Origin: Bacteroidota bacterium
GTDB taxonomy: Bacteria > Bacteroidota > Ignavibacteria > UBA10030 > BY39
Assembly: GCA_030017895.1 (NCBI GenBank)
Contig: JASEGV010000013.1
Location: 1-43,775 of the forward strand
Length of the DNA: 43,775 bases
Direction of reading: 5' to 3'
Shown here: one piece after another, positions 9,752 through 36,944 of the stretch
Numbering within the stretch: position 1 is the first letter of the stretch
Layout of the letters: every line of letters begins with the position of its first letter
Notes under the pieces: model-generated
Seen by the model: the letters and a program-made list of their open reading frames with translations, nothing else
Databases searched by the model: none
What the model was told of the DNA's origin: nothing
Position numbers and translations under genes: made by a program

Positions 9752-9754
9752 AGC

Positions 9755-9791
9755 AATGATGAATTATGAACGATTAATGATGAATTATGAA
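9755..9791. repeat. 16-bp direct repeat at the start of the four-helix-bundle gene
   Basis: aatgatgaattatgaa occurs at 9755-9770 and again at 9776-9791, separated by cgatt. The second copy includes the start codon at 9787, so the duplication created or reshaped the translation start region. Confidence 0.8.
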
Positions 9792-11369: not shown

Positions 11370-11395
11370 AAGATGTATAGCACTAAAATAAATCC

Positions 11396-12004
11396 ATGAG
11401 TAAACAAAGAGCAAATAGGAAGAAAATTAGAATTTTGGTTGCCTCGACCATTTATGGTTTTGAAGATCAACTTGAACAAATATGCTCAACTTTGCAAGGT
11501 TATGGTTATGAGGTTTGGAATTCACACTTAAAAACTATTCCAGTTCATCCTGGTAAATCAAATAAACAGAATTGTCTAAAGGCAGTTAATTCTTGTGATA
11601 TCTTTTTCGGAATTATTCGCCCTCATTATGGATCGGGTGTGATTGGAAAATTAGCAATCACACACCAGGAAATGCGTCGTGCTATTAAACTGAAAAAACC
11701 AAGATGGTTTGTTGCTCACCACGATATTAGTGTAGCTCGTCAAATACTGAAACAATATATGTTTGATAAAAATGGTAATCCCCAAAAAGCGTTCAAATAT
11801 AAAGAAACCAATATTTTAGATGATATTAGGGTAATACATTTATACAATGAAGCAATTTTGAATGATATACCTCCTCAACAACGAGTCGGACACTGGGTTG
11901 ATGAATATTTTGAATTAAGTGATATATTGCAATGTATAAAAACACAGTTTGCAAGTATTGATCGTATTAGAAAAATTGTGAAAGAAATGAATAAAAAGCC
12001 ATGA
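11396..12004 (+). CDS. DUF4062 (TIR-like fold) protein in the restriction operon
   Basis: A 202-residue cytoplasmic protein. The N-terminal half has the DUF4062 look: 'KIRILVASTIYGFEDQLEQI' (beta strand, then 'ST..gf..' and helix), 'GYEVWNSHLKTIPVHPG', 'CLKAVNSCDIFFGIIRPHYGSG' and 'ITHQEMRRAIKLKKPRWFV'. DUF4062 has a flavodoxin/TIR-related fold and often forms the N-terminus of NTPase signalling or defence proteins; here it stands alone with a ~75-residue helical extension. It shares an ATGA overlap with the AlbA_2 gene behind it, so the two are probably made together. Family assignment is by motif reading. An enzymatic role such as NAD cleavage is not shown. Confidence 0.7.
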   Translation: MSKQRANRKKIRILVASTIYGFEDQLEQICSTLQGYGYEVWNSHLKTIPVHPGKSNKQNCLKAVNSCDIFFGIIRPHYGSGVIGKLAITHQEMRRAIKLKKPRWFVAHHDISVARQILKQYMFDKNGNPQKAFKYKETNILDDIRVIHLYNEAILNDIPPQQRVGHWVDEYFELSDILQCIKTQFASIDRIRKIVKEMNKKP

Positions 12005-13401: not shown

Positions 13402-13509
13402 TTCATTTCCGGAAACTTCCAGATTTTTTCCGCATACTTCCGGAATTGTAACGAGATAATAACATAGTTTGTAAAAATGCTGTTTTTGAATAATTTTAAA
13501 TGAATATAA
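13402..13509. other. Short spacer with three ttccgga motifs
   Basis: A 108-base gap between an intact AlbA_2 gene and an AlbA_2 gene remnant. ttccgga occurs at about 13408 and 13437, and again just inside the remnant at about 13533. It could be degraded coding sequence of the lost 5' part of the remnant; I see no promoter or hairpin that stands out. Confidence 0.35.
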
Positions 13510-13941
13510 ATGAGAGCCAAATTCCAGATATTTCCGGATGGAATGTTTTTTCAGATGTTAACACAAGAAAAGAAACCCAAATTTATCAAAGACAATACAT
13601 TCAAGCTGCTTATTCCCATCAATGAAAAGATGATGGCAAAGATGGTTGGCGGCGGTGTAAGTGGCGGTGTAGTTGAGGGAATAAGTGATGGAATAAATGA
13701 TGGTGTAAGTGATGGTGTAAGTGATGGTGTAAAAAATGGTCTGATTTCTGTTGTTACAATAATCACTAAAAATCCAGGGATTAGAGTGGAAGGAATTGTT
13801 CCTTTGGTTAAAAAGGCAAAACCAACAATAGAGCGTTATATAAAAATTCTAAGGGAAATTAATCTAATTGAATATCAGGGTGCTCCAAAAACAGGTGGAT
13901 ATTATTTAACTGAAAATATGAAAAAGAAATTAAAACAATGA
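13510..13941 (+). pseudogene. C-terminal remnant of an AlbA_2/Schlafen-type gene
   Basis: The 143-residue frame lacks the AlbA_2 and ATPase-like domains. From about residue 23 onward it parallels the last ~130 residues of the full AlbA_2 protein at 15957-17420. 'FIKDNTFKLLIPINEKMMAK' corresponds to 'FIEGNTFKMVIPISEKMMAK'; both then have a Gly-rich 'GVSGG..EG' linker and end with 'KTGGY(Y/F)LTE', 'KKKLKQ'. It is therefore a gene that lost about 340 N-terminal residues. The remaining part encodes a repeat linker plus a winged helix and could still be translated. It ends with an ATGA overlap onto a truncated hsdM head, exactly as the full gene overlaps intact hsdM. Confidence 0.8.
13654..13740 (+). 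repeat. 12-base tandem repeat encoding a Gly-Val-Ser-Asp linker
   Basis: About seven degenerate 12-base units (consensus ggtgtaagtgat) give G-[VI]-[SN]-[DG] tetrapeptides at residues 49-77 of the AlbA_2 remnant. The full paralogue at 15957 has a shorter, more diverged version (GVSGGAVEGLIEGLTEG). Confidence 0.85.
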
Positions 13942-14042
13942 GCAACGGAAACACATCAAGCATAGTACAAAAAGTCTGGTCATTCTGTAACACACTCCGC
14001 GACGATAACATAAGATCACGAGAAGGCTTATATGAACATTGA
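13938..14042 (+). pseudogene. Truncated hsdM head, copy A (34-codon frame)
   Basis: The first 23 codons (MSNGNTSSIVQKVWSFCNTL + RDD) match the start of the intact HsdM at 17417 with one Val/Ile change. The frame then leaves hsdM and runs through 'NIRSREGLYEH' to a stop. Its start overlaps the AlbA_2 remnant by ATGA and its end overlaps the start of the DUF3883 gene by 11 bases, so if translated it could couple the two. It contains no methylase motif and is either an insertion scar or a coupling leader. Together with copy B at 15863 it defines a repeat that marks where accessory genes were inserted. Confidence 0.85.
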
Positions 14043-14053
14043 ACAAGTAAAGC
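13938..14053 (+). repeat. hsdM-head plus junction repeat, copy A
   Basis: 116 bases, about 90% identical to 15863-15978 (12 differences counted by eye). It comprises 69 bases of hsdM start, an invariant junction block (gataacataagatcacgag + aaggc) not found in intact hsdM, and the first ~22 bases of the following gene. Confidence 0.85.
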
Positions 14054-15147
14054 AATTATTAAATGGGAATACTATGAAGCAGCCTGATTTTTTTACTCAA
14101 GAAGATTTAGAACTACTGTCAAAGTGGAGGGATAGAGTTTATGATAAAAACAATCCTATGCACAAAAAAGTAAAAAAAGAATTAATGGATAATGTATGGA
14201 CTAAGACACAATATTGGGCAAAAGAGTTGGTAAAACGTGTTGAAGGATATGAAACGTATAATCCACGTATCTGGATGGAAAGAGGATGGGAAAATGAAAA
14301 ACGAGTATCAAAGTTCAAGAAATATACTTGGGCAAGAATATTTAAAAAAGGTGACATTAACAAAGCCATATTCTTTACCGTTGGTGCAAGTGCAAAAAGC
14401 AAAGCTCTTGTTTATAAGATAGACCATTACGGTGTAAAAGAGTCTCCTCTGAGCGCAGAACAGAAAATGTTATGCTCTCAATTAATTCCAGATAAAGTCC
14501 GATACATTCAAATACCTTATGAAGACATACCAACCTACAATTGGAAAAAATTACTCGACAAAACGGAACAATTCATTCGAGAAAATAAAATTCTCTATAA
14601 TCGAATCCTTGATGAAGTGTGGGAAAATACTGTCAATGTTCCTGGTCTTAAGAACCGTCTCATCAAGCGAGAATTACCGAAGAAAGGTCTTAATAAAATT
14701 CCCAAAAGAAAATTTAACTTTAAAGGGCATGATACAGATTGGGAAAAAAGACAGCATGATAATAGCGATCGCGGAAAACTTGGTGAAGCTCTAGTTGTCG
14801 AGCATGAAAAGGATATTCTCAGGATGAAAGATTTAGATAAGCTAGCAGAAAAAGTAAATAAAGTACAAGATGGAAAAGGATACGATATTCTTTCAAAACA
14901 TGAAGATGGGAGTGATAAATATATTGAAGTAAAGAGTACAACGGGAAATGAGAATACTCCTTTTGAGATAACACCAAATGAGGTTGAGTATTCTAAAAAA
15001 TATAGAAAGTCTTATTACCTTTATCGCGTATTTAATCTCAAAAAGAAAACTAGATTAGCCGAATATCATGAATTTCATGGGGATATTAAAAAATATTTCC
15101 TTTTAGAGGAAACACAGTTTAAAGCACACCGCAAGAATAGAAAATAA
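14032..15147 (+). CDS. DUF3883 protein, predicted PD-(D/E)xK nuclease
   Basis: A 371-residue protein. The C-terminal ~130 residues form a DUF3883 domain: 'DRGKLGEALVVEHEKD' (E252), 'GKGYDILS' (D285) and 'KYIEVKST' (E299-V300-K301), followed by 'ITPNEVEYSKKYRKSYYLYRVF'. This is the E...D...ExK layout of restriction-like nucleases, common in defence islands. The N-terminal ~230 residues are basic, helical and unassigned. The first nine codons (MNIEQVKQLL) match the start of the AlbA_2 protein at 15957 (MSIEQVKRLL) and lie within the duplicated junction. The native start may therefore be the Met at codon 16 (MKQPDFF). Its stop overlaps the next ATG (TAATG). Confidence 0.75.
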   Translation: MNIEQVKQLLNGNTMKQPDFFTQEDLELLSKWRDRVYDKNNPMHKKVKKELMDNVWTKTQYWAKELVKRVEGYETYNPRIWMERGWENEKRVSKFKKYTWARIFKKGDINKAIFFTVGASAKSKALVYKIDHYGVKESPLSAEQKMLCSQLIPDKVRYIQIPYEDIPTYNWKKLLDKTEQFIRENKILYNRILDEVWENTVNVPGLKNRLIKRELPKKGLNKIPKRKFNFKGHDTDWEKRQHDNSDRGKLGEALVVEHEKDILRMKDLDKLAEKVNKVQDGKGYDILSKHEDGSDKYIEVKSTTGNENTPFEITPNEVEYSKKYRKSYYLYRVFNLKKKTRLAEYHEFHGDIKKYFLLEETQFKAHRKNRK

Positions 15148-15254
15148 TGAAATATGATCCTAAATTAGCAGATAAGATCATTGCCAGTCTGCAACAAAGC
15201 AAATCAATCCGCCAACGCATTTTAAAGAAAGCGTTTGAAGGGAAGTTGGTGTGA
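15147..15254 (+). pseudogene. Truncated hsdS tail (last ~28 codons)
   Basis: A 35-codon frame, 'MKYDPKLADKIIASLQQSKS' then 'IRQRILKKAFEGKLV'. It matches the end of HsdS (ASLQQSETLRQSILKKAFEGKLV). Bases 15183-15254 align without gaps to 11298-11369, and the last ~35 coding bases are identical. No recognition domain is left. Its ATG overlaps the DUF3883 stop, so it could still be translated. It implies that the DUF3883-ORF6N segment came from, or passed through, another type I locus that had a different hsdS upstream. Confidence 0.85.
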
Positions 15255-15288
15255 AAACGGAAAAACAAAATATTATAGGAGATAGGGA

Positions 15289-15852
15289 ATGATATCCAAT
15301 GATTTGATAATTTCACAATCGCGAATTGAACGCACGATCCTTTTCTTGCGGGGGCAAAAAGTGATGCTCGATTCCGACCTTGCTGCACTGTATGGTATTC
15401 CTACGAAGGTGCTTAAGCAGGCTGTAAAGCGTAACCTCGATCGGTTTCCATCGGACTTTATGTTTGAATTGACTGCGGAAGAAAAAATCGAGGTGGTCAC
15501 AAATTGTGACCACCTCGCCAAGCTCAAATTCTCGCCGTACCTGCCGTATGCGTTTACAGAACATGGAGCGCTCATGCTCGCTAGTGTTTTAAATAGTCCC
15601 AAAGCAGTACAGGTCAGTGTCCAGATTGTTCGTACATTTATCCGGTTGCGTGAATTGCTCGCCACACATAAAGACCTTGCCCGCAAACTGGAAGACATGG
15701 AAAAGAAATACGATCATAATTTTAAAATTGTTTTTGATGCGATTCGTCAATTGTTGTCGCCTCCTGAAAAACCGAAAAGGCCTATCGGTTTCCGGGTCGA
15801 AGAGCCGTTGGTTCGCTACAGAACATCAAGTGGTAAGAAAAAAAGAAAGTAA
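15289..15852 (+). CDS. ORF6N domain DNA-binding protein
   Basis: A 187-residue protein. The N-terminal ~100 residues are the ORF6N domain: 'IERTILFLRGQKVMLDSDLA', 'ALYGIPTKVLKQAVKRN', 'RFPSDFMFELT', 'YAFTEHGALMLASVLNSPKA'. The rest is a coiled-coil-like helix (LRELLATHKDLARKLEDMEK) and a basic tail. ORF6N belongs to the KilA-N/Bro class of phage-derived DNA-binding domains and is frequent next to type I restriction genes; its role there is unknown. A 29-base palindrome lies inside the coding sequence. It is followed after 10 bases by hsdM-head copy B. Confidence 0.9.
   Translation: MISNDLIISQSRIERTILFLRGQKVMLDSDLAALYGIPTKVLKQAVKRNLDRFPSDFMFELTAEEKIEVVTNCDHLAKLKFSPYLPYAFTEHGALMLASVLNSPKAVQVSVQIVRTFIRLRELLATHKDLARKLEDMEKKYDHNFKIVFDAIRQLLSPPEKPKRPIGFRVEEPLVRYRTSSGKKKRK
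15489..15517. repeat. 29-base near-perfect palindrome inside the ORF6N gene
   Basis: The 14-base arms cgaggtggtcacaa (15489-15502) and ttgtgaccacctcg (15504-15517) are exact reverse complements around a single A. It codes for 'EVVTNCDHL' between the substrate-facing part of the ORF6N domain and 'KLKFSPYLPYAFTEHG'. It could be a binding site for the protein's own domain, an RNA hairpin, or a recombination site. Confidence 0.9.
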
Positions 15853-15862
15853 AACGAAATTT

Positions 15863-15967
15863 ATGAGCAACGGAAACACATCAAGTATAATCCAAAAAGT
15901 CTGGTCTTTCTGTAACACGCTTCGCGATGATAACATAAGATCACGAGAAGGCATATATGAGTATTGA
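15863..15967 (+). pseudogene. Truncated hsdM head, copy B (34-codon frame)
   Basis: The first 23 codons are identical in protein sequence to intact HsdM. The six base differences from the intact gene in the first 69 bases are all synonymous. The frame then continues with 'NIRSREGIYEY' and stops, the same non-hsdM ending as copy A apart from two residues. The stop overlaps the start of the downstream AlbA_2 gene by 11 bases, again as in copy A. It is either an insertion scar or a short leader whose translation feeds the next gene. Confidence 0.85.
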
Positions 15968-15978
15968 ACAAGTAAAGC
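15863..15978 (+). repeat. hsdM-head plus junction repeat, copy B
   Basis: Second copy of the 116-base repeat described at 13938, with the same 25-base invariant junction block and the same start of the following gene (attgaacaagtaaagc). Confidence 0.85.
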
Positions 15979-17420
15979 GATTGTTAAAACAAAAAGAAAA
16001 CATCCGTCTGGAGTTTAAGGAAGCTCAACATGCATTGCCAACAAATTTATTTGAGACAATATGTGCAATGCTCAACCGTGACGGAGGTGATATTTTACTG
16101 GGAGTTACAGACAATGCAGAACTACAAGGAGTTGAACCAACGGCGATTGAAAAAATTACAAGAGAAATTGTCACCTTATCCAACAATCCAAATAAACTCG
16201 ACCCGCCCCACATACTATTTCCGCTGGTTCATGCCGTCAATAAAAAAACAGTTATCCACATTCAAGTTCCGGCAAGCTCACAATTACATAAATCTGCAAG
16301 TGCAGTTTATGACCGCAGTGCGGATGGACATTTCGTCATAAAACAGCCGCATCAAATAGCAGAAATCTATAATCGTAAGCGAACGCATTACACAGAAGGA
16401 ATAATTTATCCCAAAATTCGATTTACAGATTTTAAGCAAGATCTCTTCCCCAAAGTCCGCAACCTAATAAAGAGTAACGTTGCAAATCATCCATGGCTTT
16501 CTTTAACTGATAAACAAATATTGGAAAGGGCAGGATTGTGGAAAAAAGATTATCAATCCGGTAAAGAAGGGTACACGCTTGCGGCAGTGTTATTATTTGG
16601 CAAAGATGAGGTGATACAACAAATACTTCCTCATTATAAAACCGATGCTCTTCTCCGCGTAAAGAACATACATCGTTACGACGACCGTGAATATATTCAA
16701 ACCAACCTGATAGAATCGTATGATAAGTTAATGGACTTTGTTGCCAAACATTTACCAGATAAATTCTATAAAGAAGGGAATCAACGTAAAAGTCTTCGAA
16801 CTGATATCTTTCATGAGGTTGTTGCGAACATTCTTGTTCACCGGGAATACACAAACGCACATCCAGCGACATTTGTTATCCATCCCGACCGTGTTGAAAC
16901 TGAAAATGCAAATAATCCAAACGGTCATGGTCCTATTATTCTTGGAAAATTTACACCGTTTTCTAAAAATCCTACTGTAGCAAAATTCTTTATTCAATTA
17001 GGTCTCGTAGAAGAATTGGGCTCAGGTTTCTTGAACGTCAATCGTTTTGTGAAAGAATATGGCGGTAAGAGATCGCCTGAATTTATTGAAGGAAATACTT
17101 TTAAGATGGTTATTCCCATCAGTGAAAAGATGATGGCAAAGAAGTTCGACGGAGCCGGTGTAAGTGGCGGTGCAGTTGAGGGATTAATTGAGGGATTAAC
17201 TGAGGGATTAAAACAAAAACTTATCAATTTAATTAAGACTATGGTAATTGAAGAAGGAAAGCGCATACCCTTCTATGCAAATAAAATTTCTGAACCCGAA
17301 AAAAATATTGAAAGGTATTTCAAATTGTTTAGAGATAAACAATTGATTGAATATAGAGGAAGTAAAAAAACAGGTGGCTATTTTTTAACCGAAGAAATTA
17401 AAAAGAAATTAAAACAATGA
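15957..17420 (+). CDS. Schlafen-type AlbA_2 protein, second full copy
   Basis: A 487-residue protein of the same general group as the gene at 12001. The AlbA_2 domain is at residues ~1-130: 'ENIRLEFKEAQ', 'CAMLNRDGGDILLGVTDNAE', 'VYDRSADGHFVI'. The ATPase-like region is at ~270-380 ('LRTDIFHEVVANILVHREYT', 'HPDRVETENANNPNGHG', 'FIQLGLVEELGSGF'). Then come a Gly-rich linker (GVSGGAVEGLIEGLTEG) and a winged helix ending 'KTGGYFLTEEIKKKLKQ'. It overlaps hsdM by ATGA, so it is coupled to methylase translation. Its head lies in the duplicated junction and its tail resembles the remnant at 13510. This suggests the original arrangement was AlbA_2 directly before hsdM. Likely a nucleic-acid-binding defence or regulatory partner; activity unproven. 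Confidence 0.87.
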   Translation: MSIEQVKRLLKQKENIRLEFKEAQHALPTNLFETICAMLNRDGGDILLGVTDNAELQGVEPTAIEKITREIVTLSNNPNKLDPPHILFPLVHAVNKKTVIHIQVPASSQLHKSASAVYDRSADGHFVIKQPHQIAEIYNRKRTHYTEGIIYPKIRFTDFKQDLFPKVRNLIKSNVANHPWLSLTDKQILERAGLWKKDYQSGKEGYTLAAVLLFGKDEVIQQILPHYKTDALLRVKNIHRYDDREYIQTNLIESYDKLMDFVAKHLPDKFYKEGNQRKSLRTDIFHEVVANILVHREYTNAHPATFVIHPDRVETENANNPNGHGPIILGKFTPFSKNPTVAKFFIQLGLVEELGSGFLNVNRFVKEYGGKRSPEFIEGNTFKMVIPISEKMMAKKFDGAGVSGGAVEGLIEGLTEGLKQKLINLIKTMVIEEGKRIPFYANKISEPEKNIERYFKLFRDKQLIEYRGSKKTGGYFLTEEIKKKLKQ

Positions 17421-18907
17421 GCAACGGCAACACATCAAGCATAATCCAAAAGGTCTGGTCGTTCTGTAACACACTCCGCGATGATGGAGTTGGGTACGGA
17501 GATTACCTCGAACAACTCACGTACCTGCTCTTTCTCAAAATGGCAGATGAGTATAGTAAACCTCCATACAACAGAAAACTGCCTATCCCAAAAGAATATA
17601 CGTGGGATAAATTAACAACGCCTAAAGGCGCGGCATTAGAAACACATTACAATAATTTGCTGCGCGATCTTGCCAAAGAAAAAAATATACTCGGTCAGAT
17701 ATTTACCAAGAGCCAGAATAAAATCCAGGATCCCGCGAAACTCTCCCGCCTCATTGATCTGATAGACAAAGAGCAATGGAGTACAATGGCGGCAGATGTA
17801 AAAGGAGAAATCTACGAAGGGCTGTTAGAGAAAAACGCGGAAGATACAAAAAGCGGTGCCGGACAATACTTTACACCGCGTGCGCTAATTAAAACAATGG
17901 TGCAATGTGTACGTCCCGAACCTAAAAAGACCATTGCCGATCCTGCGTGTGGTACAGGCGGATTTTTCCTTGCTGCGTACGACTTCCTCTCATCTCAGGA
18001 TTTAGATAAAGAGCAGAGAAAGTTTTTAAAGTATAACACCTTTTACGGCAATGAAATAGTAGCAAGCACCAGACGCCTTGCACTCATGAACCTGTTCCTG
18101 CATAACATCGGCGATATCGACAGCGAAAACTTTATCTCGTCTGCTGATGCGCTGGTATCTTCTCCATCTAAAACATTTGATTATGTACTTGCAAATCCTC
18201 CATTTGGCAAGAAAAGCAGTATGACCTTTACAAACGAAGAAGGAGAGCAGGAAAAAGAAGAGCTTACTTACAATCGTCAGGATTTTTGGGTAACGACAAG
18301 CAACAAGCAGTTAAACTTTGTCCAGCACATCCGCACTATGTTAAAGACTGACGGTAAAGCTGCAGTCGTTGTACCAGATAATGTTTTGTTTGAAGGAGGT
18401 GCAGGCGAAACAGTCCGAAAGCAATTATTAGATAAAACAGATCTGCACACGATTCTGCGTTTATCAACGGGAATATTTTATGCGAACGGTGTAAAAGCAA
18501 ATGTATTATTCTTCGATAACAAACCCGCATCAAAAGAACCGTGGACAAAAGATGTTTGGATCTTCGATTACCGAACTAATACACACCACACACTCAAAAA
18601 AAACCGGATGCAGTTTGAGGATTTAAAGGAATTTATCGATTGCTACAATCCAAAGAACCGGAACAAACGAAAAGCAACGTGGAGTGAATCGAATCCAGAC
18701 GGACGTTGGCGGAGATTTACCTACGAAGAAATTATCAATCGCGATAAAACAAGTCTCGACATTACATGGATAAAAGATAAGTCTTTAGCTGATCTTGATA
18801 ACCTTCCCGACCCGGATGTGCTTGCGATAGAGATAGTAGAGAATTTAGAAGCGGGACTTGAAAACTTCCGAGAGATTATAGATTCGATTAATGGGAAGAA
18901 GTCGTAA
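17417..18907 (+). CDS. hsdM: Type I restriction-modification methylase subunit
   Basis: A 496-residue N6-adenine DNA methyltransferase that modifies host sites with HsdS and is needed for restriction with HsdR. An HsdM N-terminal helical domain (~1-140) precedes 'GAGQYFTPRALIKTMV', then the SAM-binding motif I 'DPACGTGGF' (175-183) and catalytic motif IV 'NPPF' (260-263). Length and motifs are normal, so it looks functional. Its first 69 bases are the source or sibling of the two truncated heads upstream. It is separated from hsdS by about 6 kb of accessory genes, whereas hsdM and hsdS are usually adjacent. The start overlaps the AlbA_2 stop (ATGA) and the stop overlaps the next small gene (TAATG). 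Confidence 0.95.
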   Translation: MSNGNTSSIIQKVWSFCNTLRDDGVGYGDYLEQLTYLLFLKMADEYSKPPYNRKLPIPKEYTWDKLTTPKGAALETHYNNLLRDLAKEKNILGQIFTKSQNKIQDPAKLSRLIDLIDKEQWSTMAADVKGEIYEGLLEKNAEDTKSGAGQYFTPRALIKTMVQCVRPEPKKTIADPACGTGGFFLAAYDFLSSQDLDKEQRKFLKYNTFYGNEIVASTRRLALMNLFLHNIGDIDSENFISSADALVSSPSKTFDYVLANPPFGKKSSMTFTNEEGEQEKEELTYNRQDFWVTTSNKQLNFVQHIRTMLKTDGKAAVVVPDNVLFEGGAGETVRKQLLDKTDLHTILRLSTGIFYANGVKANVLFFDNKPASKEPWTKDVWIFDYRTNTHHTLKKNRMQFEDLKEFIDCYNPKNRNKRKATWSESNPDGRWRRFTYEEIINRDKTSLDITWIKDKSLADLDNLPDPDVLAIEIVENLEAGLENFREIIDSINGKKS

Positions 18908-23220: not shown

Positions 23221-23321
23221 CGCGTTGAGCAAAGAGCCCTTCGACTACGCTCAGGGTAAACTTTAAGCAAAGAGCGAAGAGTATTTGTTTTAAACTAAAA
23301 ACTAAAATCCTTTATTCTACA
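23221..23321. other. Spacer with REP-like motif
   Basis: Contains cccttcgactacgctcaggg at about 23238-23257, with complementary ends (ccct/aggg). This motif recurs between genes in many environmental bacteria in my experience. Two 'gcaaagagc' copies flank it, at about 23228 and 23268. Confidence 0.45.
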
Positions 23322-24653
23322 ATGAAGAAAAAACTAATATACATATCAACCGCATTAATAGTAATTATTGTTGCTTTATACTTTTTTGTTTTCCGGGGTT
23401 CTTCTGAAGAAATCAAATACAGAACCGAAAAAATTAGCAAGGGCGATGTTGTCGTACAAGTCCGTGCTACAGGAACTGTAAATCCTGTTCAAACTGTTCA
23501 AGTCGGATCACAAGTCAGTGGCACTCTTGCCAAAATTTATGTCGATTTCAACAGTATTGTTAAAGCCGGTCAAATTATTGCACAGATCGATCCGACCTTC
23601 TTGGCTGCATCAGTGAAAGAATCCGAGGCAAACCTTGAGCGTGTGCAAGCGCAGGTAAATGAGGCAAAGCGCAACCTTAATCGCTTTATAGAGCTGTTCA
23701 GTAAAGCGCTTGTTTCCCAAGCCGAGATGGATGCTGCTCAAACAAATTACGAGACATCGCTTGCCCAGCTGAAGCAAGCCGAGGCATCTCTTGACAGGGC
23801 GCGGGTTAACTTGCGATATGCAACTATCAAAGCTCCAATAGACGGAGTCGTTATTTCGCGAGACATTGATGTCGGACAGACCGTAGCGGCAAGTTTGCAA
23901 GCGCCGAAATTGTTTGTAATTGCTAACGACTTGAAAAAAATGCAAGTGGAAGCAAACGTTGACGAAGCTGACATCGGAAATATTCAAATAGAACAGGATG
24001 TTACATTTACTGTCGATGCACATTCGGGTAAAGAGTTTAAAGGGACTGTAACACAAATCCGGTTAGCACCGCAAACTGTTCAAAATGTAGTTACATATAC
24101 TGTCATCATCGAAGTTCCGAATCCTGATTTGAAGCTGATGCCGGGTATGACTGCAACAGTTTCCATTTTAATCGATGAGAAGAATGATGTTTTAAGAGTT
24201 CCGGCGATTGCTCTCCGGTTTCAACCCCCTGCCGAAGTAGTAGAAAAAATTGAAAAAGAAGTAGCTGAAAAATTTAATGGGAATAAATCGTCCGACAGTG
24301 CAAGTCATAGCAACGGTGAACCACGTATGCGCTCTTTCGGTGGCGGTGGTGGCTCTATGCCCGGCTCAGGAATGTCCGGTGAGTTCCCTCGCGGCGAACG
24401 GCGGCGAGGCGGGATGCGACAAATACAAAGAGTTTGGTTAATTGATAGCACGGGTAACTTAAAGTCTGCACCCGTTAGAACGGGTCTTTCGGATAACCGA
24501 TATGTTGAAGTTAAAGGTGGCTTCCTTAAGGAGGGAGATGAAATTGTAATCGGAATGGAAATGCCCAGCGCCAGTGGACCACAAGCTCAACAAACGAATC
24601 CATTTGCGCCGCGTACTCAAACAGGACCCGGCACGCGTAGAATGGGTTTTTAA
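23322..24653 (+). CDS. MacA-like periplasmic adaptor (HlyD/membrane-fusion family)
   Basis: A 443-residue inner-membrane-anchored adaptor. A single N-terminal helix (residues ~5-24) is followed by the biotinyl-lipoyl half 'TGTVNPVQTVQVGSQVSGTL'. A long coiled-coil hairpin comes next (~90-160, 'VKESEANLERVQAQVNEAK', 'KQAEASLDRARVNLRYATIK'), then the second lipoyl half 'APIDGVVISRDIDVGQTV' and a beta-barrel. It would link the permease in the inner membrane to an outer-membrane channel for export of peptides, lipids or antibiotics. A Gly/Arg/Met-rich insertion (~330-375) sits before the last beta domain and is unusual. The permease starts 14 bases downstream. Confidence 0.9.
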   Translation: MKKKLIYISTALIVIIVALYFFVFRGSSEEIKYRTEKISKGDVVVQVRATGTVNPVQTVQVGSQVSGTLAKIYVDFNSIVKAGQIIAQIDPTFLAASVKESEANLERVQAQVNEAKRNLNRFIELFSKALVSQAEMDAAQTNYETSLAQLKQAEASLDRARVNLRYATIKAPIDGVVISRDIDVGQTVAASLQAPKLFVIANDLKKMQVEANVDEADIGNIQIEQDVTFTVDAHSGKEFKGTVTQIRLAPQTVQNVVTYTVIIEVPNPDLKLMPGMTATVSILIDEKNDVLRVPAIALRFQPPAEVVEKIEKEVAEKFNGNKSSDSASHSNGEPRMRSFGGGGGSMPGSGMSGEFPRGERRRGGMRQIQRVWLIDSTGNLKSAPVRTGLSDNRYVEVKGGFLKEGDEIVIGMEMPSASGPQAQQTNPFAPRTQTGPGTRRMGF

Positions 24654-24667
24654 AGTCAGGATAATTT

Positions 24668-25888
24668 ATGATGAGATGGTTTGAAATATTAACGATTGCT
24701 TTCGATGCATTGATAAGGAATAAAATGCGTTCGTTGTTAACGATGCTTGGAATAATAATTGGTGTCGGTGCAGTTATTGCTATGATTGCGATTGGGCAGG
24801 GAGCGTCATTTTCCGTGGAGTCACAAATTGCATCCTTAGGTCAAAATGTTTTAATGATTTATCCCGGTGCAACTGCTCGTGGCGGAGTAAGCGGCGGGGC
24901 AGGAAGTGTTAGCACATTAACAGTAGCCGATGCCGAAGCCATTGTCGAACAGTGTCCCTCTGTTGCATATATGAGTCCGATTCTAAGAGCGGGCTCGCAA
25001 GTGGTCGCCGGAAATTTGAATTGGAGTACAAGTGTGCAAGGAGGAACTGCAGATTTTTTTGCGATTCGTGATTGGAAACTCGACAACGGTGAATTGTTTT
25101 CTGATGCCGACGTAAAAGCAAGTGCAAAAGTATGCGTCATTGGAAAAACCGTCGCCGACAATTTGTTTCAAGGAGCCGATCCAGTTGGTCAGATGATTCG
25201 TATCAGAAATATACCATTCAAAATTGTGGGCACGATGAAATCAAAAGGGCAGAGTGTTTCTGGGCAGGATCAGGATGATATTATTGTGGCACCTTATACA
25301 ACGGTTCAAAAACGAATTTTAGGAATTAATTTTATCTGGGGTATTATGGTATCGGCAATCAGTAAGGATAAAATTTTCCAGGCACAACAAGAAATTACAG
25401 AAGTGCTTCGTGTCCGGCACCGGCTGCAGCTTTGGGACGACAACGATTTTACAGTCCGCAATCAAACTGATATTGCTGAAACGGCGACCGCAACATCCAA
25501 AATAATGACGATACTCTTGGGAAGTATAGCATCAGTTTCGTTGTTAGTAGGTGGAATTGGAATAATGAACATTATGTTAGTTTCTGTTACAGAGCGCACT
25601 CGCGAAATCGGAATACGGATGTCTATAGGTGCAAGACGGCGCGATATACTTTCACAATTTTTAATGGAAGCTATTGTATTAAGTCTTCTCGGTGGTTTTA
25701 TCGGGATTATATTCGGTGTTACTGGTTCGAATTTAATATCAAAATTTGCCGATTGGCCCACGTTTGTTTCTGAGGGTTCGATTGTACTTGCAGTATTTTT
25801 TTCGATGGCAGTTGGTGTGTTCTTCGGATTCTATCCTGCGCGCAAAGCTGCAAGTATGAATCCGATTGATGCGTTGAGATACGAGTAA
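24668..25888 (+). CDS. MacB-like ABC permease (FtsX family) without ATPase domain
   Basis: A 406-residue inner-membrane protein. It has one N-terminal helix ('LLTMLGIIIGVGAVIAMIAI'), a ~220-residue periplasmic MacB core and three C-terminal helices with the FtsX signature 'RTREIGIRMSIGARRRDIL' before helix 3. It is a stand-alone permease: the N-terminal ATPase found in E. coli-type MacB is absent and no ABC ATPase gene is present next to it. It must therefore use an ATPase encoded elsewhere. It pairs with the MacA-like gene just upstream. The ending 'YPARKAASMNPIDALRYE' is typical for the family. Confidence 0.9.
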   Translation: MMRWFEILTIAFDALIRNKMRSLLTMLGIIIGVGAVIAMIAIGQGASFSVESQIASLGQNVLMIYPGATARGGVSGGAGSVSTLTVADAEAIVEQCPSVAYMSPILRAGSQVVAGNLNWSTSVQGGTADFFAIRDWKLDNGELFSDADVKASAKVCVIGKTVADNLFQGADPVGQMIRIRNIPFKIVGTMKSKGQSVSGQDQDDIIVAPYTTVQKRILGINFIWGIMVSAISKDKIFQAQQEITEVLRVRHRLQLWDDNDFTVRNQTDIAETATATSKIMTILLGSIASVSLLVGGIGIMNIMLVSVTERTREIGIRMSIGARRRDILSQFLMEAIVLSLLGGFIGIIFGVTGSNLISKFADWPTFVSEGSIVLAVFFSMAVGVFFGFYPARKAASMNPIDALRYE

Positions 25889-26032: not shown

Positions 26033-26914
26033 ATGACGAAATTGTGGACTGAAGAAGAAATTAAAATATTGAGAGCGTCTTACTCAAAGCGCGGTTCAGT
26101 ATATGTGGGTAAAAAAATTAATCGTTCTCCGGATTCTGTCATCGCAAAAGCTATTCAATTAGGAATTCGTTCAAAACGAGTTAAAAAATGGGAGACGTGG
26201 GAAGATAATTATTTACTGAGGCACTATAACGACCGCTCTAATGCGGCGATTGCCAGGACATTAAAAAGAACTATCCCATCTGTCCTAATTCGTGCAAAAA
26301 AATTGCGACTGACTGAAAAAAGAGCCGCAAATTGGGCGGATGAAGAAATAAATCTGCTGAAGAGTTGTTATCACGACCGCAAGATTTCTTTGCACGAACT
26401 TTCTCAAAAAATAGGCCGCACACGATATAGTATTTTGCTAAAAGCACAAACTTTGGGTTTAAGCAGGCCATTACACGACCACGATTGGACAAAAGAAGAA
26501 CGCCAGTACGTTAAAAAACATTATCATAAAAAAACTTATAGAGAAATTGCTGATAAGCTTGGAGTTAGTATCAATGCAGTTTCTCATTACGTAAATCGGA
26601 TGGGTATTCTGAAAAGACAGCCAGGTAGAAAATGGACTGAGGAGGATAAAGAATTTTTAAGAAAGAACTACAAAATAATTCCAACAAAAGAAATCGCTTT
26701 GAAACTGAATAGGAGTTACGATTATGTCGTGAACTATGCGGGATTACTCGGTTTAAGTTCAGGTCCAAATAAACCCTGGACAGCTGAAGAAAAGGAGTTC
26801 CTGAAAGATAATTATAAAAAAATACCGATTGAGGATATAGCAAAAAATTTGGACAGGACAGTTAAAGCGATTTCCTCTTATATTTCAAAGTATAACTTCA
26901 CGAAAATAAAATAA
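26033..26914 (+). CDS. Protein of six tandem SANT/Myb-like DNA-binding repeats
   Basis: A 293-residue basic protein made of six ~47-49 residue repeats. Each begins W(T/E/A)xEE(D/E), continues with a hydrophobic helix and a tyrosine, then a helix-turn-helix of the type 'I(A/G)xKLxRSxxSVxxxAxxLG'. Repeats begin near 'LWTEEEIKIL', 'KWETWEDNYL', 'NWADEEINLL', 'DWTKEERQYV', 'KWTEEDKEFL' and 'PWTAEEKEFL'. There is no signal peptide, membrane segment or other domain, so it should be a DNA-binding protein able to cover a long site. It is not visibly in an operon with its neighbours. The pattern is eukaryote-like, but GcrA-type and phage HTH proteins also use such units. No target is known. Confidence 0.75.
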   Translation: MTKLWTEEEIKILRASYSKRGSVYVGKKINRSPDSVIAKAIQLGIRSKRVKKWETWEDNYLLRHYNDRSNAAIARTLKRTIPSVLIRAKKLRLTEKRAANWADEEINLLKSCYHDRKISLHELSQKIGRTRYSILLKAQTLGLSRPLHDHDWTKEERQYVKKHYHKKTYREIADKLGVSINAVSHYVNRMGILKRQPGRKWTEEDKEFLRKNYKIIPTKEIALKLNRSYDYVVNYAGLLGLSSGPNKPWTAEEKEFLKDNYKKIPIEDIAKNLDRTVKAISSYISKYNFTKIK

Positions 26915-26950: not shown

Positions 26951-28930
26951 ATGCTTAAAACTATCAAACTTAAATCTACGAAACTAATCCAACCGGGATA
27001 TATAATTGCCGTTGTAGTTGTGATAGCTGCCTCAATGATTATTTCTGCGATTTGGGAATTGACGCAAAGTCGAAAAGAACTTTACCATTTAATGACTGAA
27101 GAAGCAACGCTGCTGATTGAAACAATGACGTTGAGCAGTGCCAACACCGTTTTATCGAATGCCGAAATGGAAGATTTAATCGCAGATAGATTATTAAGCG
27201 TGGCATATATGGTCTCAGAATTAGATAGTATAACTGCTATAAGCAATAAATACTTAAAAAGGATTGCCGATGAGAATCAGGTTGATAGGATAAATATTTT
27301 TGACGTAAAGGGGAATAAGATCGCAAGCAGTTACACTCATGATACCACACACGAAAGTTTAAAAGCCAAACATTCGCCTTCCGATTTTATTCAACCGATA
27401 CTCAAGGGTGAAGTTACCGAACTGATTATCGGATTGAAAGAAGCGCGATACGAGAACGGGAAAAGATTTGCAGTTGCGGTTCGCCGTAAATCAAATGAAC
27501 GCGGTGCTGTTGTCGTAAATATCGATGCAGCTTATCTGTTGAGTTTTCGTGAAAAAATCGGTTTCGGAAGAATGCTTCAGGACATAGGCAACAATGCAGG
27601 TATCGAATACATAGTTTTACAAGACAGCGATGGAATACTTGCGGCGAGTAAATCAGTTTCCGAAATAAATTCGATTGAGGGTGATGAATTTTTGGAAAAT
27701 GCACTTCAAAGAAAATCAGTCCATACCCGCGTATCTTCCTTTAATGATATGGACGAAATACACGCACTTGAGGACAGGATGTCGCGTCGTACTGTAATTA
27801 TATCTCTCGTATTGTTTGTGCTTGCTTCACTCGTAATCGGAGTAATTATCGTCAACCAAAATCTTAAATTCGTTTCTCGGGAATACGAAAAAATCCAAAC
27901 CTACACCGGCAGCGTCATTCAAAATATGGCTGATGCACTGATCACTACTGATGCCGAAGGATTTATAACAATCTTCAATAAACAAGCGGAGAATCTTTGT
28001 GCGACAGATTCACACCATGTTATTGGGAAACATATATCAAAAATTTTTAACAATCAGTTGGTTGTTTTGGCTGAAAGTTTAAATACCCGCAACTCGTTAA
28101 AAAATATTGAGTTAACTGTCGTATGTCCCAATAAAGGCAGTCGAATTCTTGCTATCAATACTTCGTTTGTTTACAACGAGGGCGATGTCTTAAGTTCGTT
28201 TACCGCCGCTTTGAAGGATGTTACTGAGACACGTGCAATGGAGCGGCATATACAACAGCGCGAAAAATTGGTTGCAATGGGTGAGCTTGCATCGGGGGTC
28301 GCGCACGAAATTCGCAACCCGTTGAATTCAGTAAATATGATTGCTCAGAGATATGAGAAAGAATTCGTTCCACAAGCAAACCATGATGAATACTACGGAC
28401 TTACAAAAATACTTCGTTCCGAAGTTCAACGCGTAAACAACATAGTTCAACAATTCCTTCGCTTTGCCCGTCCTCCTAAATTAAACATCGCAAGCATTCC
28501 ATCTTTGGAGTTTTTAACTGATTTAAAAAATATATTCGAAGTCCAAATTTCCTCGAAAAATATTGAGCTTGAAATATCTTCGACGGAAAACTGCATACTC
28601 AACATCGACCGTGAACAGATGAAACAAGTATTTTTAAATCTCTTACAGAACAGTATCGGTTCGATGCCGCAAGGGGGCAAAATATCTTTAAAACTTTTCT
28701 GCAATGAAGATAAAAGAATATTTGAGTTCCAAGATACGGGAATAGGAATACCTGAGAAAAATTTAAGCAAAATATTCAACCTCTATTTTACTACACGGGC
28801 AGAAGGAACAGGATTGGGATTAAGTATCGTTCAACAAATAGTATCTCAGCACGATGGTCTTATTAATGTTAAAAGCGCGCAAGGTACAGGAACAAAGTTT
28901 ATAATCGAATTACCTCTGAAAGTGAGTTAA
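26951..28930 (+). CDS. Membrane sensor histidine kinase (NtrB/ZraS type)
   Basis: A 659-residue inner-membrane kinase. TM1 is ~17-35, followed by an extracytoplasmic sensor (~36-275), TM2 (~281-302), a PAS domain (~315-425, 'NMADALITTDAEGFITIFN'), HisKA with phospho-His H452 ('GVAHEIRNPLNS') and HATPase with 'NLLQNSIGSMPQGG', 'DTGIGIP' and 'GTGLGLSI'. It should phosphorylate the sigma-54 activator encoded 2 bases downstream. The sensor region ends abruptly ('NDMDEIHALEDRM' runs straight towards TM2), which may mark a small loss compared with relatives. The ligand is unknown. Confidence 0.93.
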   Translation: MLKTIKLKSTKLIQPGYIIAVVVVIAASMIISAIWELTQSRKELYHLMTEEATLLIETMTLSSANTVLSNAEMEDLIADRLLSVAYMVSELDSITAISNKYLKRIADENQVDRINIFDVKGNKIASSYTHDTTHESLKAKHSPSDFIQPILKGEVTELIIGLKEARYENGKRFAVAVRRKSNERGAVVVNIDAAYLLSFREKIGFGRMLQDIGNNAGIEYIVLQDSDGILAASKSVSEINSIEGDEFLENALQRKSVHTRVSSFNDMDEIHALEDRMSRRTVIISLVLFVLASLVIGVIIVNQNLKFVSREYEKIQTYTGSVIQNMADALITTDAEGFITIFNKQAENLCATDSHHVIGKHISKIFNNQLVVLAESLNTRNSLKNIELTVVCPNKGSRILAINTSFVYNEGDVLSSFTAALKDVTETRAMERHIQQREKLVAMGELASGVAHEIRNPLNSVNMIAQRYEKEFVPQANHDEYYGLTKILRSEVQRVNNIVQQFLRFARPPKLNIASIPSLEFLTDLKNIFEVQISSKNIELEISSTENCILNIDREQMKQVFLNLLQNSIGSMPQGGKISLKLFCNEDKRIFEFQDTGIGIPEKNLSKIFNLYFTTRAEGTGLGLSIVQQIVSQHDGLINVKSAQGTGTKFIIELPLKVS

Positions 28931-28932
28931 AA

Positions 28933-30300
28933 ATGTTTAAGCTAACAATTTTAATAGTAGATGATGAAGCGAATCAGCGGAAAATACTCGCCGGACATTT
29001 AAAGAAGAAAGATTACAATGTAATAGAAGCCAGTTCTGCTGAACAAGGAATTGAATTAGCGAATAAAAATATGGTTGATTTAATTCTAACAGATTTTAAG
29101 ATGCCCGGTAAAACAGGATTAGACCTGCTTAAAGAAGTTCGAGCAAATAACCCTGAAGCGGCAATTGTAATAATGACGGCATTCGGGACAATCGAAAATG
29201 CCGTCGACGCGATGCGTGCGGGTGCATACGATTACATTACAAAACCTATCGATTTCGATGAACTCGAATTGCTCATTCAACGGCTTGGTGAAAGGCAGAA
29301 GCTTATTTCGGAAAATATTTTACTTAGGGAACAGCTTGCTGAAAAATATAAGTTTACAGACATCATTGCGCATTCAACCAAGATGGAAGAAGTATTAAAT
29401 CTTACAGGAAGGGTGGCAAAGAGTCGAGCATCGGTGCTCATAAGGGGTGAAAGTGGAACTGGAAAAGAGTTGATTGCCCGAGCTATTCATTTTGCAAGTC
29501 AACGCTACGCTAAACCCTTTGTAGCGGTCAATTGTTCTGCATTAAACGAGAACTTGCTTGAAAGCGAATTATTCGGGCACGAGAAGGGCGCCTATACCAG
29601 CGCCGATAAACAGAGGAGAGGACGGTTTGAATTAGCCGACGGTGGAACTATATTTTTAGATGAAATCGGCGATATACCTCTTTCAACTCAAGTTAAACTG
29701 CTTCGCGTCTTACAGGAACAAAATTTCGAACGAGTCGGTGGCTCGCAAACAATTAGCGTAGATGTCCGTGTAATTGCAGCAACTAACAGAAACCTCGAAG
29801 AGTTAATGAAAGAGGGGAAGTTTCGTGAAGATTTATTTTATCGGCTCAATGTCGTTACCATCGAAATTCCTCCGCTGCATCAAAGAAAAGAAGATATTCT
29901 TCCGCTTGTAGAATATTTTACCGGGAAGTATTCAAAAGAAGTGAACAAGAAACAGGTAGAATTTTCGAAGGAAGCAATCGATATACTTATAAAATATCAT
30001 TATTCGGGAAACGTGCGTGAGCTGGAAAATATAATCCATCGCGCAGTAGTACTTGTTCGGGAAAATCTCATCACAACCAATGAACTGCCTATCAACTTAA
30101 GAAATTTACCAAGTGAACAGCCAATCTCCAAATCTACTCAATTACAAAATTTAGGTGAGCGGGTTGAAGAGTTAGAGAAAGAATTAATTTTTGAGGCGCT
30201 CCAAAAAACAGATGGCAACCAATCTAAAGCCGCTTTGTTGTTAGGAATTTCAGAGAGGAACTTGCGATACAAATTAGAAAAGTTGGGCTTGAAGAAATAA
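28933..30300 (+). CDS. NtrC-family sigma-54-dependent response regulator
   Basis: A 455-residue activator. The receiver domain is 1-~120 with phospho-Asp D54 ('LILTDFKMPGK'), T81 and K103. The AAA+ domain has Walker A 'GESGTGKE' (171-178), the sigma-54 contact loop 'GAYTSA' (218-223; usual GAFTGA) and Walker B 'GGTIFLDEIGD'. The C-terminal Fis-type HTH is 'GNQSKAALLLGISERNLRYK'. It works with the kinase just upstream. The obvious candidate target is the sigma-54-like promoter at 30438 in front of the secreted-protein cluster. All catalytic elements are present; the GAFTGA variant is worth noting. Confidence 0.95.
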   Translation: MFKLTILIVDDEANQRKILAGHLKKKDYNVIEASSAEQGIELANKNMVDLILTDFKMPGKTGLDLLKEVRANNPEAAIVIMTAFGTIENAVDAMRAGAYDYITKPIDFDELELLIQRLGERQKLISENILLREQLAEKYKFTDIIAHSTKMEEVLNLTGRVAKSRASVLIRGESGTGKELIARAIHFASQRYAKPFVAVNCSALNENLLESELFGHEKGAYTSADKQRRGRFELADGGTIFLDEIGDIPLSTQVKLLRVLQEQNFERVGGSQTISVDVRVIAATNRNLEELMKEGKFREDLFYRLNVVTIEIPPLHQRKEDILPLVEYFTGKYSKEVNKKQVEFSKEAIDILIKYHYSGNVRELENIIHRAVVLVRENLITTNELPINLRNLPSEQPISKSTQLQNLGERVEELEKELIFEALQKTDGNQSKAALLLGISERNLRYKLEKLGLKK

Positions 30301-33815: not shown

Positions 33816-35993
33816 ATGATTAAGCATATCAAAATTGTTTTTATCATCCTGTTATTTTTATTAAAATCGAGTTACGCATTTGCGGAGATTGAAAATACTA
33901 AAAAAGTTCTTATCCTTGTAGAAGGGACTTCGCTGATTAATAATATCGCAATGGGAGATGGGCGACAACTCGCAACGCTTCTTGGGCACTTTGATACAAA
34001 AACTGATATCAAAGGTATAGTTGATTATTCCGAGAGTGAAATAAATAATTATGATTTCACATTCTACATCGGTTTCCACAAAGATAATAATGTACCATCA
34101 AAATTCTTAAACGATGTAATTAAATCATCTAAAGCGATTATTTGGCTTAATACAGGATTTAAAGAATTTTCAAAAAATTATGATCTACATAAAATATTTG
34201 GTTTTGATGTTTCTCATTTAGATACAGCAACTCAATACGATTTAGTGAAATCCGGGAAAAAAGTATTTACTAAGGGCGAGCCAAATGCAAACATTATTAA
34301 TGTCAGCGATAATCGAATGGTCAGCGTTCTCGCACACGCAATTTCCTCAAAGTATGGAATCGAAATTCCATACATAGTCAAATCTAATAATTTTTATTAT
34401 ATTGCCGATTCTCCGTTCGCGTCGGCGAGCGAGTCCGACCGTTATCTCCTTTTTGCTGATATGCTTCACGATATTTTAAATGAACAACACGAAGCATCAC
34501 ACTCTGCGATATTAAGAATAGAAGACATAGGTCCGCTCGACAATCCAAATCAATTAAGAGATATTGCAGATTTTTTAGGCGACCGAGGTATTCCGTTTTT
34601 GTTCAGTATTTATCCCTTTTATGTAAATCCAGCCGAAGGTATTCGGGTCAGTTTATCAGATAAGCCAGAATTAGTTGATGCGTTAAAATATATGGTCCGA
34701 AACGGCGGGACTTTGGTTATGCACGGAGTAACCCACCAATACAAAGGAATGTCGGCAGCAGATTTTGAGTTCTGGGATGAAAGCACTAATGCACCGATTA
34801 AGGATGAATCGGCGGAAGCATTCTCAAAAAAGATAGAGATGGGGATTAACGAGTTTATGAAAAATGGATTGTATCCGCTTATTTGGGAAACTCCACATTA
34901 TACCGCCTCGCTTTTATTTTACAAAACAGTTTCAAATTATTTCAGTACGGGTATCGAACAGCGACTTTCTATCGAAAATTTCGACTACAGTCAGTTCTTC
35001 CCATACATTATAAAAAAAGATTTATTTGGACAAACAATTTATCCCGAAAATCTTGGATACGTACCACTTGACGAAACAAACAAGCAAGTAAGCCGGGATG
35101 CTGTTCAAAATATTATTAAGGGAGCTAAAACAAATCTATATGTTCGTGATGGTTTTGCTTCTTGTTTCTTCCATCCATTTCTTGATCTGGATTTGTTAGA
35201 AGAATTAGTTGATGGTATTCAAGGTTTGGGATACACATACATTGATTTAAAAGATGGAACAAACTGGGTAAAAACAAAGGATAAATTAATAATAAGTGGA
35301 AATCAATCGCACACACTTAATCTTGAGGATCAATATTTAGTAGAAGCGTACTTCAATTCATCGGGTGAAATAATTAAAAGGAAACAATCAGAAAAGAGAC
35401 TGAACGGGACTGTTATAGTAGGCGACAATTTAAAACCTGGGCAATTCTACAAAGCAGAGGTGCTGGAATTTCGGGAAAGACAAGTAAGTTTTTATGAGAA
35501 CACCTATTACAAATTAGAAAATTTTTACAATAAGATTATTCCCTCATCAGACAATATAGATGAAGCACGACCGGTAGTATTGTGGAATCATTATGCTAAA
35601 GGGGCTGCCTACAATGATCAGGCATCTTTCGTCTCGGTTTTTCAGAGTGTAAATATAAATGTTGATACTATATATGTCGGACAAAAAATTGATTTAAAGA
35701 ATTATAACCTTTTACTCGTTCCTTTCAGTTTTGTTGATTCATTAAAACCCTCCGACTTTGATATTGTAGTAAAATTTGTCGAGGATGGAGGGAATATAAT
35801 CACCGATTCTAAAAACTATTTAGTTGAAGAGTTAGGAATTAAATTTAGCGAAAACAGACTTAGCGTTAGAAAAGTCCGAGACCGTTATTTTCCCGAAGAA
35901 CAGATGAGCTGGAGATATACCGAGTTCGTGAATAAATTCGAATGCGATGATAACCTCTGTAAAAATTTTATCAATGAGCTGAGCAGCTTCTAA
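33816..35993 (+). CDS. DUF2334 polysaccharide-deacetylase-like protein, 3' end lost
   Basis: A 725-residue exported protein with a signal peptide (~1-23). Residues ~225-480 are a DUF2334/NodB-like domain: '[19 protein letters not shown]' (metal Asp region), '[14 protein letters not shown]' and '[17 protein letters not shown]' (H-x-x-x-H). These enzymes remove acetyl groups from surface polysaccharides. A region from ~590 ('[16 protein letters not shown]', '[11 protein letters not shown]') is Rossmann-like. From base 35943 the frame runs through the antisense of purH, so the last 16 residues are not native and the real C-terminus is missing. Probably partner of the outer-membrane gene upstream. 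Confidence 0.75.
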
Positions 35994-36944
35994 ATCGAGT
36001 GGTCGGTTTACGGCTACAATCCCGCCAAATGCCGATTTCGTATCTGTAGCAAATGCTTTTTCATACGCTTCTGCTAAAGTTTTTCCAGAGCTAACGCCGC
36101 AGGGATTTGTATGTTTTATAATGACCACCGTTGGTTCATCGAATTCTTCAACCAACTCAATCGCCGCCTGAATATCCACAAGATTGTTGTATGAAAGCTC
36201 CTTGCCTTGAAGTTTTTCAAAGAATTTATAGAAATCACCATATACTGCTGCCTTTTGATGTGGGTTTTCACCGTATCGCAACTCATCCGTCTTTGGATAC
36301 GAGATCGCGAATGTTTCTGGAAAAGAGGAAGGGGCGATATTCTCCTCCACCTTAGCAAGGTATCCCGAGATCGCTGTATCGTATTCTGCTGTGTGTTGAA
36401 ATACCTTTTTTGCTAAAGCGAAACGGGTTTCTTCTGAGATTGCACCGTTGTTCTTTTCAAACTCAGAGGCGATACTTCCATAGCTCGATGGGCTGCTTAC
36501 GACAACTTTATATTTATAATTCTTTGCTGCCGCTCTGAGCATTGATGGACCACCAATGTCAATTTGCTCGATTGCTTCATCAAGCAATACACTTTCTTTT
36601 TTAATTGTCTGCTCGAAGGGATAAAGATTAATAACCACCATATCAATCGGTGTGATATCCAACTCTTTCAATTGCTGCTGATGCTGTGGATTATCAACTA
36701 CCGCCAGAAGTCCGGCATGAATTTTTGGGTGAAGTGTTTTAACTCTTCCGTCCAATATTTCTGGAAATCCAGTAATGTCGGAAATAGACTTTGCATTTAT
36801 GCCGGCGTCTTGAAGCGTTTTCAGTGTTCCGCCTGTTGAAATAATCTCAACACCAAATCGCATGAGTTGTTTAGCAAACTCAACAATTCCGGTTTTATCT
36901 GAAACGCTTATTAATACTTTTTTAATAATGATTGGATTTTTCAT
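35832..36944 (-). pseudogene. purH: purH truncated at its 3' end
   Basis: Bifunctional IMP cyclohydrolase / AICAR formyltransferase, last two steps of purine synthesis. The MGS-like cyclohydrolase domain (1-~150) is complete: '[17 protein letters not shown]', '[10 protein letters not shown]', '[16 protein letters not shown]', '[10 protein letters not shown]', '[14 protein letters not shown]'. The formyltransferase domain starts normally ('[11 protein letters not shown]', '[11 protein letters not shown]') but native sequence stops at '[11 protein letters not shown]' (residue 334, base 35943). The remaining 36 residues are antisense of the DUF2334 gene. About 175 residues of the usual ~510 are lost, so formyltransferase activity is not expected. 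It follows purN directly. Confidence 0.9.

Follow-up and report, generated by a model that had tools for sequence, protein, structure and literature searches.

What does a bacterial protein do that consists of six tandem helix-turn-helix units and little else? The question is raised by a gene in a 43,775-nucleotide stretch of contig JASEGV010000013.1 (assembly GCA_030017895.1; Bacteroidota, class Ignavibacteria), here called the window. An initial annotation, made from the nucleotide sequence alone, described the product as an array of six SANT/Myb-like repeats that could read a long DNA site, act as an architectural protein or be modular.

Results

Six helix-turn-helix units make up almost the entire protein

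The open reading frame at 26033-26914 on the forward strand starts with ATG, has a single stop and encodes 293 residues. The repeats were separated at their tryptophans, and each was scored with an HMM made from the other five. The held-out units scored 23.5-46.4 bits and 999 shuffles reached at most 12.7 bits; for each of the six units, 0/999 shuffles matched the real score. Unit starts and ends were placed by a 42-position unit HMM refined on relatives, giving helix-turn-helix units of 42-44 residues:

26033..26914, + strand, gene of the six-unit helix-turn-helix array protein (293 aa, pI 10.0, 34.5 kDa)
26045..26170, + strand, unit 1, residues 5-46 (unit HMM 53.6 bits; leave-one-out 33.8 vs shuffled maximum 12.6)
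26189..26314, + strand, unit 2, residues 53-94 (unit HMM 49.9 bits; leave-one-out 23.5 vs 12.7)
26333..26464, + strand, unit 3, residues 101-144 (unit HMM 47.3 bits; leave-one-out 30.6 vs 8.3)
26486..26611, + strand, unit 4, residues 152-193 (unit HMM 63.6 bits; leave-one-out 39.5 vs 7.5)
26633..26758, + strand, unit 5, residues 201-242 (unit HMM 58.7 bits; class-wide consensus)
26777..26902, + strand, unit 6, residues 249-290 (unit HMM 55.7 bits)

The six tandem repeats of the initial annotation are thus borne out. Its statement that nearly every residue belongs to a repeat, with no other domain, agrees with 254 of the 293 residues lying inside units, and its description of the repeats as well diverged fits pairwise identities of 20-38% among them. 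The W-xEE signature that it gave is fair, in that every one of the six units begins with W, but loose: unit 2 begins WETWED, and position 5 of units 1-6 reads E/E/E/E/D/E. The seven tryptophans of the protein are the one at each unit start and W56. Unit 3 is longer by two residues, inserted between helices 1 and 2, unit 5 is strongly conserved class-wide (consensus IPTxEIAxKLxRSxDxIIN), and unit 6 is the one lacking in 5-unit relatives. The protein is basic throughout.

The units are closer to GcrA and phage D5-like proteins than to Myb

An AlphaFold2 model of the array protein, built from a 7-sequence alignment, has helical units throughout and low-confidence linkers (mean pLDDT 80.6, pTM 0.28). 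Each of units 2-6 has three helices, and in unit 1 helices 1 and 2 are merged. Because of the pTM of 0.28 and the low-confidence linkers, the placement of the units relative to each other is undefined, and the whole-chain TM scores are accordingly low (about 0.2). In the fold search, the whole chain is best matched by Myb arrays bound to DNA (SNAPC4, 7xur, E=8e-4; Reb1-Ter, 5eyb, E=0.011). 2lvs, titled CRISPR repeat binding protein, comes seventh in the fold search and is the top PDB sequence match of the orthologue profile (E=0.0038), and the search of viral structures has a Vibrio phage "D5 protein" in eighth place. A single unit is fitted by the GcrA DBD-DNA structure 5yiv with a TM of 0.83 and an rmsd of 1.4. 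The PDB match 8vd6 ("CAP repeat") was rejected, as it covers weak short stretches only, in a protein whose regular repeats appear to be designed.

The GcrA profile PF07750 scores 43.0 bits (cut-off 26.9), with the match spanning positions 2-49 of 155, and the NCBIfam GcrA equivalog NF050816 scores 15.7 bits against a cut-off of 280. The Myb/SANT profile PF00249 stays at 21.7 bits, under its cut-off of 24.4; other unit profile matches are to generic HTH or sigma70 region 4. The best family match is the phage family phrog_323 ("transcriptional regulator, D5-like"; E=1.1e-57), limited to profile positions 4-191 of 319 with 192-319 unmatched. Several HNH endonuclease families also match the array protein, and its Pfam and PHROG profile matches include no nuclease domain. 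Thus, the label SANT/Myb-like is not supported as it stands, the units being closer to GcrA and phrog_323. The accompanying view that tandem Myb repeats are mainly eukaryotic is partly right, but prokaryotic and phage arrays exist, namely Listeria phage D5-like proteins, Cbp1 of Sulfolobales (PMC10883916) and viral arrays fused to endonucleases. As to whether the units fall into an already described family with known function, which the initial annotation had also raised, the answer is half yes: phrog_323 is a described family, with a function assigned by annotation. Altogether, the unit is of a known kind, while the fixed-array, array-only host family is little described; a literature search found no paper on it.

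Unit order and spacing are shared across the class

Of the 197 genomes of the class, 25 contain phrog_323 matches at a threshold of 1e-10; at the different threshold of 1e-15, so do 9 of the 296 genomes of a phylum sample. All nine lie within the class, and none of the matches in this 296-genome sample lies outside it. Counting repeats in homologues, proposed initially as a check, gave 2-7 units in 21 proteins from 20 matching class loci, most of them almost wholly units. The unit spacing 48-48-51-49-48 is identical in members of families f1, f2, f4, f14 and f24, the seven f17 proteins have five units spaced 48-48-51-49, and 7-unit proteins have one added N-terminal unit. Members of f8 have 35-107 additional N-terminal residues and different spacing, the spacing in BMS3Abin03 is off by one residue, and that in G032 is different. 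The units of G032 align one step later than those of other orthologues, a pattern consistent with the gain of an N-terminal unit and the loss of unit 6. In a tree of the core units, support is high for f17 (100), for f1 and f2 without G032 (100) and for the BMS3/G210b pair (99); the deep nodes are weak (41-63), and transfer between families is therefore possible.

Arrays were also seen in other settings. G080 by itself accounts for 15 phrog_323 matches, spread over at least six open frames, on contig L138 and others (C1, C2, C4, C20, C37, C66), which is an expansion of array proteins. The 7-unit array gene of G028 (L033:5769-6854) lies within a locus of relatives of the type I restriction island found in the window (6959-18907), adjoining an hsdS-like gene and preceding an hsdM-like gene. 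In a Bacilli MAG, two neighboring genes (L009:4245-8680) code for array proteins, one with 12 and the other with 14 units; both have a common C-terminal region, which is similar to parts of the viral relatives L042 and L046. A viral contig protein (L039:2995-4257) has four units before an endonuclease domain that, judged by eye, looks LAGLIDADG-type. Among 14 control genomes, Methanocaldococcus jannaschii has a phrog_323 match (E<=1e-10), and arrays of this kind may therefore occur in archaea.

Each unit keeps its own probable DNA-facing residues

The array gene is under purifying selection, with a dN/dS of 0.19 between the window and G001, where macB and ntrC have 0.05-0.08, and of 0.08 between G040 and G005. 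Units pair one for one with their counterparts in other families. In the exposed columns of the recognition helix, identity between same units is 0.30 versus 0.12 with permuted unit order (0/2000, z 7.2), at the start of helix 2 it is 0.53 versus 0.16 (z 8.9), and in the exposed columns of helix 1 it is 0.28 versus 0.19 (z 3.2), the exposed faces being assigned by reasoning from predicted helices and not from a DNA complex. A wider species set gave 0.26 versus 0.12 for the recognition helix and 0.33 versus 0.20 for exposed helix 1; because the latter is also unit-specific, the contrast for the DNA face is modest. Overall, the initial annotation is supported in its picture of an array-only protein of well-diverged units, each with probable DNA-facing residues of its own.

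The array gene is a host gene in housekeeping operons

The protein is conserved at seven orthologous loci, with 87-88% identity in the same genus and 36-55% in five others. Among 60 relatives, these are found in G001 (87%), G005 and G040 (54-55%), G017 (49%) and G032 (39%); BMS3Abin03 carries another (46-47%). The neighbors in the window are:

23322..24653, + strand, MacA-like membrane-fusion protein, upstream neighbor (HlyD_D23 7.9e-24; synteny)
24668..25888, + strand, MacB-like permease (MacB_PCD 1.1e-54, FtsX 4.4e-23; synteny)
26951..28930, + strand, NtrB-like PAS histidine kinase (HATPase_c, HisKA, PAS)
28933..30300, + strand, NtrC-like sigma54 response regulator (Sigma54_activat 7.6e-75, Response_reg)

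In the f1 and f2 orthologue loci, the array gene comes after macB, the usual neighborhood of which is MFS, M29 peptidase, macA, macB, uvrB, comFC and gapdh. In G005, G040 and G032 it sits between macB and uvrB, 16-22 bp past macB, and in G000 and G001 it follows macB and precedes ntrB-ntrC. The NtrB-like kinase gene begins 36 bp past the array gene, a linkage confined to the genus of the window. In G001, macB and the array gene are 679 bp apart (L023:9322-10000) versus 144 bp in the window, and the longer gap contains short repeats of 8 bp (TGGAGTAT-like). Two f24 genomes and BMS3Abin03 have the array gene behind proS, no more than about 30 bp away, and in G017 it stands after a hybrid histidine kinase gene and before valS. 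Array genes lie 16-31 bp past housekeeping genes. Paralogues with 5, 7 and 2 units are encoded elsewhere in the window genome, at host loci; that with 7 units lies among genes for menaquinone.

In nine related genomes (G002, G004, G010, G013, G015, G018, G028, G036 and G059), macB is directly followed by uvrB without the array gene, which is thus dispensable. Repeated loss is the simplest reading of this pattern; the alternative is more than one insertion at one spot. Phage genes adjoin the array gene in none of the orthologous loci, and the array gene does not look like a phage relic but like a host gene in housekeeping operons. A prophage relic was likewise rejected for the window, where no phage genes lie beside the array gene and an ORF6N-domain gene is 10 kb away in a type I restriction island.

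Two other features of the window were recorded. The restriction island (6959-18907) has hsdR, hsdS and hsdM, interspersed with genes for 23S-IVP, DUF4062, two Schlafen/AlbA_2 proteins, NOV_C and ORF6N. A purH-like open reading frame (35832-36944, - strand) looks truncated, as its AICARFT match stops at 200 of 311, and its end overlaps a convergent neighbor.

Candidate targets

An autoregulatory site was rejected: no conserved block was found upstream of the array gene between the two genus members, and the upstream regions of the seven f17 genes have only A/T tracts in common, which beat block-shuffled controls because of their low complexity. Degenerate heptamer GAGCNNN arrays lie in intergenic DNA before macA (window 23221-23321; L023:6446-6720), long in G001 (67 pattern matches) and decayed in the window. 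They were rejected as a target, being present in 14 of 60 genomes without fitting orthologue presence: G017 has the array gene and zero heptamer arrays, and G006 and G026 have about 30 each without the gene. CRISPR repeats were rejected because there is no correlation with Cas1. Membership in a defense system was rejected because the PADLOC matches cover only the HTH part (mad1, 3e-9; homing endonuclease, 4e-6).

Discussion

We cautiously favor a model in which the array protein is a sequence-specific DNA-binding regulator or architectural protein with its units aligned along one long composite site. In this model, the six GcrA-DBD-like units would line up one after another along double-stranded DNA, each contributing its own contacts, and would jointly read a single non-palindromic composite site of roughly 25-40 bp. 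Because there is no catalytic, ligand-binding or sigma-binding domain, the protein would act by occupancy at few loci, either as a repressor or road-block or as an architectural scaffold. The six units, the unit fold, the fixed order and spacing across families, purifying selection, the high pI and the host operons are established, and DNA binding, sequence specificity, site length, target and regulatory output are inferred. Probably, the arrangement along one long site parallels that of Cbp1, Reb1 and SNAPC4; Cbp1 has three HTH domains and is bound to its site in domain order (PMC10883916). Points against this model are that no upstream site was found, that a pTM of 0.28 leaves joint action of the units undecided, that the DNA face stands out only modestly from helix 1 in the wider species set, and that the gene is dispensable.

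A weakly specific protein that coats DNA cooperatively, as nucleoid-associated proteins do, and whose basic units provide avidity only, would fit the pI of 10 and the basic character throughout, the distant similarity to D5 of phage T5 and the lack of a specific upstream site in the genus pair and the seven f17 genes. We consider coating unlikely, however, because it would not need the unit-specific residues of the recognition helix and of the start of helix 2 that are kept in fixed order across families; the patchy presence and repeated absence of the gene also argue against it. The patchiness would equally suit a D5-like regulator or the targeting part of a homing endonuclease that was captured from a phage or mobile element and is now decaying or selfish. 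The top match to phrog_323, the matching HNH endonuclease families and viral relatives with 1-4 units, some fused to endonuclease-like domains, point the same way. Yet such a captured element would hardly be expected to have housekeeping neighbors with no adjoining phage genes at any orthologous locus, an architecture fixed class-wide and purifying selection, and we regard this explanation as rather improbable, although a distant phage origin of the array family is possible.

Only a slim chance is given to a modular DNA-reading array in which units of about 48 residues would each read a few bp, gain and loss at the ends would give 2-14 units, and the code could be deciphered as for TALE and zinc-finger arrays. 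It is suggested by the comparison of G032 with other orthologues at the same locus and by the 5-, 6- and 7-unit members with one core. That one unit recruits sigma factor or RNA polymerase, making the protein a GcrA-like transcription co-factor, seems very improbable: the units match the GcrA DBD in sequence and fold, but the sigma-interacting domain is absent, as seen from the partial PF07750 match and the NF050816 score, and GcrA requires its separate C-terminal domain for its role (PMC7403470). Least credible is a Cbp1-like protein that covers CRISPR arrays. Cbp1 is also HTH-only with the same general plan (PMC10883916), and 2lvs is the best PDB sequence match; however, of the six genomes with an orthologue that were tested, just three have Cas1 (G000, G001 and G017; not G005, G032 and G040), and many genomes without the array gene have it too.

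The sequence-specific regulator or architectural protein that we favor shares features with several known systems. As in PHROG 323 proteins, the same unit occurs in tandem (e.g. Listeria phage B054 gp65, with four unit matches), but here the units are more numerous, more regular and located in host operons. D5 of phage T5 (AY543070) is annotated as DNA-binding and needed for replication, late transcription and shut-off; the unit HMM finds three units in it, all below threshold, with a whole-sequence E of 1.4e-9 (1000-sequence space). Unlike the window protein, D5 has a pI of 6.3, a best unit of 13.6 bits and no regular array. Whereas GcrA of Alphaproteobacteria combines one HTH, similar to one unit in sequence (43.0 bits) and fold (TM 0.83), with a sigma-interacting domain in its separate C-terminal part through which it acts (PMC7403470), the window protein has six HTH units and no such domain. 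Cbp1 is likewise an HTH-only array with units bound in order along the site (PMC10883916), and 2lvs is a weak match in both sequence and fold; but Cbp1 has three units, is archaeal and is dedicated to CRISPR repeats, while the window protein has no CRISPR link. The viral homing-endonuclease arrays place the same units before an endonuclease-like domain, as in the four-unit protein L039; by contrast, the units of the window protein fill the chain and no nuclease domain follows.

Myb/SANT repeats have three regularly spaced tryptophans. The Myb arrays of SNAPC4 and Reb1 resemble the window protein as DNA-bound tandem tri-helical units and best whole-chain folds, but its units keep only the first of these tryptophans and remain under the PF00249 cut-off.

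If the six units read one long site, the array protein would be a bacterial regulator with specificity set by unit order, for which we found no characterized example in this lineage. The class-wide unit order and spacing make this idea testable: the sites of relatives with 5, 6 and 7 units should have a core in common and diverge at one end. If true, the family would also serve as a point of comparison, on the host side, for the many phage "D5-like" proteins that owe their function to annotation only.
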